Assembly: GCA_032250735.1 (NCBI GenBank)
Contig: JAVVEP010000002.1
Coordinates: forward strand, 110,003-174,002
Direction: 5' to 3'
Length of the DNA: 64,000 nucleotides
Origin: Gammaproteobacteria bacterium
GTDB taxonomy: Bacteria; Pseudomonadota; Gammaproteobacteria; SZUA-152
Shown: one piece after another, positions 28,721-31,544 of the stretch
How positions within the stretch are numbered: the stretch's first letter is position 1
Layout: every line of letters starts with the position of its first letter
The notes under the pieces: model-generated
What the model was told of the DNA's origin: nothing
The model's input: the letters and a program-made list of their open reading frames with translations, nothing else
Database searches by the model: none
Made by a program: the position numbers and the translations under genes

Positions 28721-28752
28721 AACGCCCCGCGGCAGTGATCGCGGGGCGTTTC
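28721..28752 (+). terminator. Hairpin after yceI
   Basis: A perfect 10-bp stem (AACGCCCCGC, 28721-28730; GCGGGGCGTT, 28741-28750) with a 10-base loop, followed by only two further T residues before C. Probably a terminator. Confidence 0.7.
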
Positions 28753-28862: not shown

Positions 28863-28889
28863 TAAAGTTAGGATAGAAACGGTCGATAG
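28863..28889 (+). promoter_or_regulatory. Sigma-28 (FliA)-type promoter before the STAS gene
   Basis: TAAAGTTA (28863-28870), an 11-base spacer and GTCGATAG (28882-28889) match the FliA consensus TAAAGTTT-N11-GCCGATAA at 13 of 16 positions with exact spacing. It points at the STAS gene, about 85 bases downstream, and fits a flagellar control role for that operon. Confidence 0.65.
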
Positions 28890-28975
28890 GGCATTAGGTT
28901 TCGCGCGAATACGTGTTAGCCTATACCGAGATAGCGGGGTGGTGTTGCCCTGCGACGAATCAATGGAGAGCTCGA

Positions 28976-29284
28976 ATGCCGGTTACATCTGATGTTTTAG
29001 CCGACGCTAAAACAGTCAATATCAAGATTAGTGGGCGGTTTGATTTTGCAGTGCAAAATGAGTTTCGTGAGTGTTATTACCATAAAGGCCCAGGAGATAA
29101 GAAGGCCTTTGTCATCGATATGGGTAATGCCAACTATATGGATAGCTCAGCGCTTGGAATGTTGCTGATGATGAGGGAATACCTTGGCGGTAACGAGGCT
29201 GATATCACCATTATCAAATGCTCGCCGGATATTAAAAACATCTTAACGGTCGCCAATTTCCAAAGCCTGTTTAAGATGGCGTGA
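28976..29284 (+). CDS. STAS-domain anti-sigma factor antagonist (HsbA-like)
   Basis: A 102-residue STAS protein. The phosphorylation motif is YMDSSALGMLLMMRE, with Ser in DSSALG the likely target, preceded by KKAFVIDMGN. In Pseudomonas, HsbA of this type is phosphorylated or dephosphorylated by HsbR and binds FlgM or a diguanylate cyclase to switch between motility and biofilm. The next gene here has the HsbR architecture, so the same pair is likely. GGAGAG precedes ATG 28976. A sigma-28-like promoter lies upstream. Confidence 0.85.
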   Translation: MPVTSDVLADAKTVNIKISGRFDFAVQNEFRECYYHKGPGDKKAFVIDMGNANYMDSSALGMLLMMREYLGGNEADITIIKCSPDIKNILTVANFQSLFKMA

Positions 29285-29395
29285 GCCAAATGACTCAGGC
29301 AAGTATTGTGTGCTTGACGTGACACGACAGGGCACAACACCAGTGTTTGAAAAGTCTGCCGTAAGCTGCGAGCTACATGACATTCCAGTGGCTTT

Positions 29396-31150
29396 ATGAA
29401 TTCATCTCATGCTGTAACCGGCAAGCAAAAAACCATCACCAAAGACAGCAATGCGCTTAAAGTGCTTGTTGCGGATGATGACGTACCAAATCGCCTGATT
29501 CTCCAGGCCATTCTTGAAAAACAGGGTTACCAGGTATTGCTCGCCGACGATGGTCAGCAGGCCGTCGACATTTTTCGTTCTGAACAGCCTGATCTGGTTC
29601 TGATGGATATCAAGATGCCCAAACTGGATGGTTATGAGGCGACTCAGGAGATCAAGTCGATCAGCGGTGACACTTTTGTGCCGGTCATTTTTTTAACCGC
29701 GACCACTGACAGTGAAGGCCTGGCGAAGTGTGTGGCATCCGGCGGCGATGATTTCCTGACCAAACCGTATAACCGTGTGTTATTGCAGGCACGTATTGAT
29801 GCGCTGTTACGCATACGCGAACTCTATAACACAACCCAACAGCAACGTAATGAGCTGGCTAGACATCAAAAACGTCTTGATCGCGAGCGGCAGTTAGCCA
29901 AACGGCTGTTTAACAATATCCTCGAAACCGGCGCCCTGGATTTACCCTACATAAAATCCATGTTGTCACCGATGTCATTGTTTTCGGGCGATATCCTGAT
30001 GGTGGCAGAAAAGCCATCGGGCGGCCTGCATGTTTTGCTGGGGGATTTTACGGGACACGGTCTGGCTGCCGCTATAGGCGCGCTGCCGGTCTCCAGTGTG
30101 TTTTATGGCATGACGGCAAAAGGATATTCCATTGCCGAGATCGTGACCGAAATCAACATCAAACTAACTACAATTTTACCGACGGACATGTTTCTTGCGG
30201 CATGTGTGGTTGATATCAATCCAGGCAGCCATACCATGTCGGTCTGGAACGGTGGCATACCGGCGGTATTTATTTACGGCGAAGAAGAACAGGAGATTGT
30301 GCGCACGGTACCGTCGCAGCACCTGCCACTAGGCGTCATAGGTAATGAAAGTTTTAATCGCCAGGTAGATGTGATCGAAATGCGCCAGCATGATCGAATT
30401 TTTATTCATTCGGACGGTATTACGGAGACCGCCAATCCTGCGGGCGAGATGTTTGGCAGCCAGCGACTGGAAAAGATCTTTGTAGACAGTAACCGGTCTG
30501 AGGATTTATTTGACGATGTCCGTGCAGCTTTGGCCAGTTTTACTGCCGGTGCGGACCAGCATGATGATATGACGCTGATTGAAATTCAATATGATCAGCC
30601 TCAGCTTGAAGCGACTATTCACCAGGATAATGGTGAACGCGAAGCAGATCCTGCACAGCCATCGGCAACGTGGAGTCTTTCAATGCAGTTGGGCGCGCGA
30701 CTGATGAGCAGTTTTGATCCCTTACCCTTATTGATTAAATCGGTCTGTGATATGCAGGGCTTGCGAGGTCAGCGCCAGCAGCTTTATACGGTATTCTCGG
30801 AATTGTTTTCCAATGCCTTGGATCACGGGATTTTAGGCCTGGATTCCAAACTCAAACAAACCGCCGACGGTTTTGCAAAATATTACATGGAGCGCGCGGA
30901 AAAATTAGCGACTCTTTCCGAGGGCAATATTATTGTCGATATCAGTCACCAACCTGATGAAGATGGCGGCGTCCTGACGATCCGTTTCGAGGATAGCGGT
31001 CGTGGTTTCGATTATGAAAAAGGCACACCTTCGCTGGAAAGCAATCTAGGGCACTCCGGCCGGGGTATTCAGCTGCTGCATTCTATTTGCGATGACATTA
31101 CCTATGAAAATAAAGGTAATGTGGTTACAGCCACTTATCGGTGGTCTTGA
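29396..31150 (+). CDS. Response regulator with PP2C phosphatase and HATPase kinase domains (HsbR-like)
   Basis: A 584-residue protein with three domains. Residues 21-140 are a receiver with acidic pocket DDD (27-29), phospho-acceptor Asp71 in LMDIKMP, Thr101 and Lys123. Residues about 190-400 are a SpoIIE/PP2C phosphatase (GDFTGHGLAAAIGALP, HSDGITE, DDMTLIEI). Residues about 430-580 are an anti-sigma-factor-type HATPase (FSELFSNALDHGIL, IRFEDSGRGFD, GHSGRGIQLLHSICD). This is the HsbR layout: one protein both phosphorylates and dephosphorylates the STAS partner according to receiver state. No histidine kinase is next to it. The ribosome binding site is weak. Confidence 0.9.
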   Translation: MNSSHAVTGKQKTITKDSNALKVLVADDDVPNRLILQAILEKQGYQVLLADDGQQAVDIFRSEQPDLVLMDIKMPKLDGYEATQEIKSISGDTFVPVIFLTATTDSEGLAKCVASGGDDFLTKPYNRVLLQARIDALLRIRELYNTTQQQRNELARHQKRLDRERQLAKRLFNNILETGALDLPYIKSMLSPMSLFSGDILMVAEKPSGGLHVLLGDFTGHGLAAAIGALPVSSVFYGMTAKGYSIAEIVTEINIKLTTILPTDMFLAACVVDINPGSHTMSVWNGGIPAVFIYGEEEQEIVRTVPSQHLPLGVIGNESFNRQVDVIEMRQHDRIFIHSDGITETANPAGEMFGSQRLEKIFVDSNRSEDLFDDVRAALASFTAGADQHDDMTLIEIQYDQPQLEATIHQDNGEREADPAQPSATWSLSMQLGARLMSSFDPLPLLIKSVCDMQGLRGQRQQLYTVFSELFSNALDHGILGLDSKLKQTADGFAKYYMERAEKLATLSEGNIIVDISHQPDEDGGVLTIRFEDSGRGFDYEKGTPSLESNLGHSGRGIQLLHSICDDITYENKGNVVTATYRWS

Positions 31151-31220
31151 AATACCGGCTTGTTCATCGATTTTCTATCGCGGTAAAATACCTGTTCTCG
31201 CCAAAGCCAAGGATTAGATT

Positions 31221-31544
31221 GTGGATCTTAAAGTCGTTGTTGAAACCAATACCTACTCAATCACCATTCCCGATGCCATCACCCGGGATGGTGCATCGTT
31301 CTTCGCAAAAATGGATGAAGATATGAGTAAGGGCTGGCAGATGGATCGACAGTGGGTGGAGGCGCCGACTGTTCAGCAGCGCTGTCAGATCGCGGCAAGC
31401 CGCATTGCCGATGCCATTGAGGTCGAAAATGACACGCTGGCCTCACTGATGGCCGGCTATATCGTGACCCGTATGCCGTCAGTGAAAGAGGTGCATGTCG
31501 ACACGGAAGGCGAGATGACCGAAACGCGATTCATCGAAGGCTAA
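31221..31544 (+). CDS. Small hypothetical protein downstream of the HsbR-like gene
   Basis: A 107-residue acidic protein with a GTG start preceded by AAGGA at about 9 bases. It begins MDLKVVVETNTYSITIPDAI and ends TETRFIEG; there is no signal peptide or known motif that I can see. The 70-base spacing and same direction suggest it is the third gene of the STAS/HsbR-like operon, so it may be an accessory to that switch. That is inference from position only. Confidence 0.65.
   Translation: MDLKVVVETNTYSITIPDAITRDGASFFAKMDEDMSKGWQMDRQWVEAPTVQQRCQIAASRIADAIEVENDTLASLMAGYIVTRMPSVKEVHVDTEGEMTETRFIEG

Follow-up and report, generated by a model that had tools for sequence, protein, structure and literature searches.

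Which sigma factor transcribes the STAS gene and the adjacent three-domain regulator gene of this locus, and which sigma factors would their products control in turn? The STAS protein HsbA is a known hinge between FliA and RpoS, and elsewhere the switch to which it belongs decides between swimming and settling. The window (the whole stretch of 64,000 nucleotides analysed here) lies in a 3.43-Mb genome of 61 contigs (G000), and it appears to hold a new wiring of this known switch, the HsbA/HsbR-type pair being apparently under the sigma factor of swimming. Literature searches covering titles and the beginnings of abstracts returned neither a FliA-dependent hsbA promoter nor a second FliA linked to pili. 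If the switch is indeed read by sigma-28 in some bacteria and by RpoS in others, one switch would give positive feedback or a stress output depending on the lineage, and comparing the lineages would test directly how the wiring of lifestyle decisions changes.

The STAS and HsbR-type proteins

The first gene of the pair (28976-29284, forward strand) encodes a STAS anti-anti-sigma protein of 102 amino acids, HsbA/CrsA-like (Pfam STAS, 3.9e-11), with the motif MDSSALG from residue 55; a longer GTG open reading frame begins at 28913, and the start was placed at the ATG at 28976 because the relatives begin at ATG. The second (29396-31150, forward strand) encodes an HsbR/CrsR-type regulator of 584 amino acids, in which Pfam delimits a receiver domain (REC, residues 23-134), a SpoIIE/PP2C phosphatase domain (208-399) and a HATPase kinase/anti-sigma domain (466-580). 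Both proteins score above the Pfam cut-offs, and they show the HsbR/CrsR-type architecture: a single protein joins REC, PP2C and HATPase, and its STAS partner is encoded by a gene of its own. The motifs of the receiver (VADDD, MDIKMP, FLTATTD, TKP), the phosphatase (LGDFTGHG, DQHDDMTL) and the kinase (ELFSNALDHG, DSGRGFD, GHSGRGIQLL) are intact; they hold the acidic pair and the Asp of receivers, the acidic residues of PP2C phosphatases and the N and G boxes of HATPases, and the STAS motif holds the phosphorylated Ser. A separate homolog with receiver and PP2C domains (390 amino acids) is encoded elsewhere in G000.

The pair lies beside yceI. The locus itself lacks an Hpt gene. Elsewhere in G000 Hpt gave three hits, all inside open frames (921, 1465 and 746 amino acids), and no stand-alone HptB was found in this genome, which speaks against an HsbA/HsbR-like mechanism in full; the input of the switch thus differs from that of Pseudomonas. 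The HsbA/HsbR-like pair proposed by the sequence-only reading therefore stands at the level of the family, in its domains and catalytic motifs, and is limited by the missing HptB and by a second STAS protein beside fliK (see below), whose pairwise identity to Pseudomonadaceae HsbA is higher.

A predicted sigma-28 promoter before the STAS gene

A close match to the FliA consensus with correct spacing had been noticed before the STAS gene and was confirmed by scanning with TAAAGTTT-N11-GCCGATAA: the predicted sigma-28 (FliA)-type promoter TAAAGTTA-N11-GTCGATAG (28863-28889, forward strand; 11-nt spacer GGATAGAAACG) agrees with the consensus at 13 of 16 positions (3 mismatches), with 86 nt between its end and the ATG at 28976. 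It is the single match with up to 3 mismatches in the 64-kb window, with 0.27 expected and at least one found in 24 of 100 shuffles; one site per 64 kb is not beyond chance, so the match in the window alone proves nothing. The whole G000 genome contains 50 such matches, compared with 19 for the reversed pattern. No sigma-70-type site upstream of the pair was listed in the scan, and the leader gave no RNA element at gathering scores. Between yceI and the sigma-28-type site, 3' of the former and 5' of the latter, a GC-rich inverted repeat of 9 bp with an 8-nt loop was read directly from the sequence (CGCCCCGCG ... CGCGGGGCG, 28723-28748); it is a possible terminator, which would separate the switch from yceI, and the pattern scan left it unlisted because its T tail is weak.

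Conservation of the site in relatives

The family sample comprised 24 genomes; in 22 of them (all but G009 and G011) an HsbR-type gene reached an E-value of 1e-60 or better, and the sequences upstream of the STAS ortholog were compared across these 22 loci. The motif was present in the same orientation in all 12 genomes of the genus: ten sites have 3-4 mismatches, the site of G015 is weak (TCAAGTCA-N11-GTCGATAG, 5 mismatches), and that of G014 has a 10-nt spacer (TTAAGTTG-N10-GTCGATAG; 6 mismatches if an 11-nt spacer is forced). G008, from another genus, carries TCAAGTTC-N11-GCCGATAG, bringing the total to 13 of the 22 loci, with divergent flanks. At the other nine the motif is absent, the best candidates having 6-8 mismatches (7/7 loci of genus g2 and the only locus of each of g6 and g4), so that three of the five genera with the locus lack it. 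When each 300-nt upstream stretch was dinucleotide-shuffled 1000 times, the observed match was reached by 1-26 shuffles in 11 of the 13 genomes, by 70 in G015 and by 489 in G014; seven genus genomes have near-alignable upstream stretches, which reduces the independent lineages to about six.

Scanning named genomes yielded 80 HsbR loci. The 11 closest (L250-L260) carry the motif, with a 10-nt spacer in L257 and 5 mismatches in L253, and some of them are the same contigs as family genomes (for example Ectothiorhodospiraceae bacterium isolate NORP100); the other 69 have no site with up to 3 mismatches and two with 4 (L282, L291). Conservation, the condition on which the promoter had been made to depend, is therefore found throughout the genus and in G008, and breaks down at nine of the family loci. 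Since the site at 28863-28889 is conserved upstream of STAS orthologs it was taken as real; this conservation, together with the like motif before flgM and flgK, supports a likely sigma-28 promoter before the STAS-HsbR pair.

FliA-type sigma factors and sigma-28-type sites in G000

The genome was searched for flgM and fliA, both named in the sequence-only reading. FlgM is encoded on the contig of the window (TIGR03824), and its gene has a sigma-28-type site of its own 33 nt upstream (TAAAGAAT-N11-GCCGATAG). There is not one FliA-type sigma factor in G000, there are two. The flagellar fliA, in surroundings that we take to be flhB, flhA, flhF, fleN and che genes, exceeds the FliA cut-off in 23 of the 24 family genomes; the second lies beside recR (G000:C22:11823-12479; L085:7728-8504), followed by a small gene and a Sel1-repeat-like gene, and exceeds the curated FliA cut-off in 21 of the 24. 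RpoS is also encoded (482.7 bits).

Further sites with up to 3 mismatches precede flgK (47 nt upstream), a HAMP/PAS sensor gene (36 nt), a gene pair for a receiver and a CheC/CheX protein (85 nt), pilM (34 nt; G000:C1:42916-42942; L002, L205) and a receiver-domain gene, presumably PilG-like; the rest of the 50 are either intragenic or precede genes with no obvious connection. Across the family, a sigma-28-type site was seen upstream of pilM in 24/24 genomes (60-97 nt; L206-L228), 21 of them with up to 3 mismatches, and looser sites precede pilM in several genomes of the class. With such sites before pilM and the second FliA, sigma-28 would come to control twitching as well as swimming.

A second STAS gene beside fliK

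A solitary HsbA-like STAS gene (100 amino acids; G000:C19:43053-43262; L234, L330) was seen directly after fliK, preceded in G000 by TAAAGTTT-N11-CTCGATAG. It occurs in 16 of the 24 family genomes, preceded by fliK or a cheB-like gene, the position that hsbA occupies in relatives; no HsbR gene was seen behind it, and of the 16 loci only G000 and G013 have a site with up to 3 mismatches before it. Its product shares 40% identity with the window's STAS protein. To the HsbA-like proteins of Pseudomonas, Halopseudomonas, Thalassolituus and Marinobacter it is 47-49% identical, compared with 38-47% for the window protein, and in other rows of the 17 compared the order is reversed (41 versus 49% for L284, 42 versus 54% for L260). 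Its being nearer to HsbA is judged by pairwise identity alone because the STAS tree (101 columns) is poorly resolved.

HsbR-type loci across the class

In the class sample of 369 genomes, 77 have an HsbR-type regulator at E 1e-80 or better. At most of these loci the STAS gene lies directly upstream of HsbR, and the genes before it vary (chemoreceptor-like, cheB or fliJ). In many class genomes a chemoreceptor-like protein of about 400 amino acids, ending in G-[ED]-[IV]-[ED]-L-F, was seen before STAS-HsbR (L102, L156 and L161 among others); it is perhaps the sensor of the switch. An Hpt-like gene follows HsbR in the relatives from Pseudomonas, Halopseudomonas, Thalassolituus, Bermanella and Marinobacter, in the orders fliJ-STAS-HsbR-Hpt (Halopseudomonas, Pseudomonas) and cheB-STAS-HsbR-Hpt (Thalassolituus), the Hpt, FliJ and CheB names having been confirmed on one locus each; these arrangements agree with the hsbA-hsbR-hptB operon near flagellar genes described in the available part of PMC5085249. 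An HsbR tree was built from 170 loci, of which 168 had no stop over at least 480 amino acids, 150 were distinct and 114 remained after thinning (CrsR not among the rows); in it the family is a clade by itself (99*), whose grouping with the Pseudomonas-type clade is weak (support 81).

The HsbR-type switch has a general link to motility: FliA is encoded in 68 of the 77 HsbR genomes compared with 140 of the 292 without HsbR (Fisher p 2.8e-11, related genomes not being independent). The nine HsbR genomes without FliA at E 1e-60 include the single-contig G057, indicating that FlgM is not the sole target of such switches; RpoS is the likelier common target.

The 107-residue protein

A gene for a conserved protein of 107 amino acids (31221-31544, forward strand, GTG start) follows HsbR in the window, and had been proposed as a third part of the switch. 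Neither Pfam nor NCBIfam gave a match, and 33 members of its family gave no consistent Pfam family. The predicted structure is confident (pLDDT 93.1), and a PDB structure search with it returned no match at E 0.001 or better, the best VIA Z being an uninformative 4.2 to YqeY over 57 residues; a sequence search of the PDB gave no convincing relative. G000 also encodes a distant paralog (G000:C5:61083-61283; L083).

The expected co-occurrence with HsbR turned out to be weak: of the 86 class genomes with the 107-residue family at E 1e-20 or better, 27 are among the 77 HsbR genomes and 59 among the 292 others (p 0.0095), and the two genes adjoin in only two of the 27 with both (G000 and G005, both from the family of the window). 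No HsbR neighbour was found at the 27 class loci of the gene whose neighbours were examined, and elsewhere its neighbours are presumably YchJ, YgiQ and Fe/2OG-dioxygenase-like proteins. In the family an intact copy is present in 10 of the 24 genomes, directly downstream of HsbR in seven, which favours a functional third part, and elsewhere in three, which does not; moreover, the gene is missing from 15 of the 22 family HsbR loci and occurs at 3 of the 80 named ones, and the copy in G008, away from HsbR, contains two stops. As a third part of the switch the protein is thus unsupported, and we hold that role to be very improbable. It was rejected as a member of a widespread independent family rarely found beside HsbR, and its gene, judged from its distribution in the family, the class and the named loci, is probably a bystander that moved in. 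If an overlooked third part exists, the second STAS protein beside fliK is the better candidate.

Proposed output of the switch

Our preferred reading, which we consider moderately probable, is that in this genus the STAS-HsbR pair has a promoter of its own, read by a FliA-family sigma factor, and that the output is the availability of sigma factors. Under sigma-28 control the switch would reach high levels only as the flagellum nears completion. The HATPase domain of the HsbR-type protein would phosphorylate the STAS protein and the PP2C domain would dephosphorylate it, both actions being controlled by the receiver domain. If the switch works like HsbR-HsbA and CrsR-CrsA, RpoS would also be held by the HATPase domain, and FlgM may be held by one of the STAS proteins in its unphosphorylated form (that of the window or the second, next to fliK), thereby releasing FliA. 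For P. aeruginosa, the available part of PMC6482189 describes FlgM as bound by unphosphorylated HsbA, with release of FliA, and RpoS as held by the third domain of HsbR. RpoS is a likely output of the window switch, and a feedback loop on FliA through FlgM is plausible. Against control by sigma-28 stand the site missing in g2, g6 and g4, though 23 of the 24 family genomes have FliA, and the P. aeruginosa genes hsbR and hsbA, whose expression is reported to be raised by RpoS (same part of PMC6482189).

The switch might instead act mainly on RpoS, as a CrsR-type system, to which we give somewhat less than an even chance: sigma-28 would raise HsbR and RpoS would be sequestered in the motile cell, with FlgM untouched and no FliA loop, only a hierarchy of two sigma factors. 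RpoS is indeed present in G000, nine of the 77 HsbR genomes lack FliA, two-hybrid data in the available part of PMC6482189 have RpoS bound by CrsR and by the third domain of HsbR, and the second STAS protein, nearer to Pseudomonadaceae HsbA, could serve FlgM instead; however, the strong co-occurrence of HsbR with FliA and the Pseudomonas homolog, which acts on both FlgM and RpoS (same source), speak against this reading. Another reading has the promoter read by the second, recR-linked FliA and not by the flagellar one, which would place the switch in a regulon of its own, perhaps together with type IV pili. The frequency of this sigma factor in the family (21/24) and the pilM sites favour it, but G014 and G022 have the STAS site and no second FliA (both assemblies are incomplete), and loose pilM sites occur also in class genomes without it; we consider it unlikely. 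It is still less probable that the motif arose by chance or is used by another factor, the pair being read from an ordinary promoter: chance alone would give about one in four such windows a match this good, and three of the five genera lack the motif, but orientation, spacing and -10 core are conserved in the 12 genus genomes (one with the 10-nt spacer) and the scan listed no sigma-70-type site upstream.

A wider scheme can be drawn, speculative and in our view rather doubtful: FliA and the recR-linked FliA2 would share a regulon of late flagellar genes, the pilM-led type IV pilus operon and two HsbA-like STAS proteins (one with HsbR, one alone by fliK), and the sigma-28-driven switch would arbitrate between FliA, FliA2 and RpoS, and hence between swimming, twitching and stress.

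Comparison with known systems

The closest comparison is with HptB-HsbR-HsbA-FlgM/RpoS of Pseudomonas aeruginosa, which shares with the window the adjacent STAS and REC-PP2C-HATPase genes and with its genome FlgM and RpoS; the HsbR relatives of Pseudomonas and Halopseudomonas are 40-42% identical to the window protein over all three domains. The window locus differs in having no HptB, adjacent or alone, in lying by yceI and not in a flagellar cluster, and in the predicted sigma-28-type promoter, where in P. aeruginosa RpoS is reported to raise hsbR/hsbA (available part of PMC6482189). CrsR-CrsA of Shewanella oneidensis, which controls RpoS according to the same source, is likened by description, as a three-domain regulator with a STAS partner; a chemosensory context of the kind met in other class genomes is absent at the window locus. 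RssB-RssC of Pseudomonas also combines receiver and PP2C domains, and the separate 390-residue protein of G000 is a homolog of this type; model NF045505 matches the window protein only over residues 20-344, with 69 bits compared with a cut-off of 700. The predicted promoter resembles late FliA promoters in its -35 TAAAG, 11-nt spacer and -10 CGATA core, which the sites preceding flgM and flgK in G000 also show; it differs from late FliA promoters in that its target would be a regulator and not the filament or chemotaxis genes.
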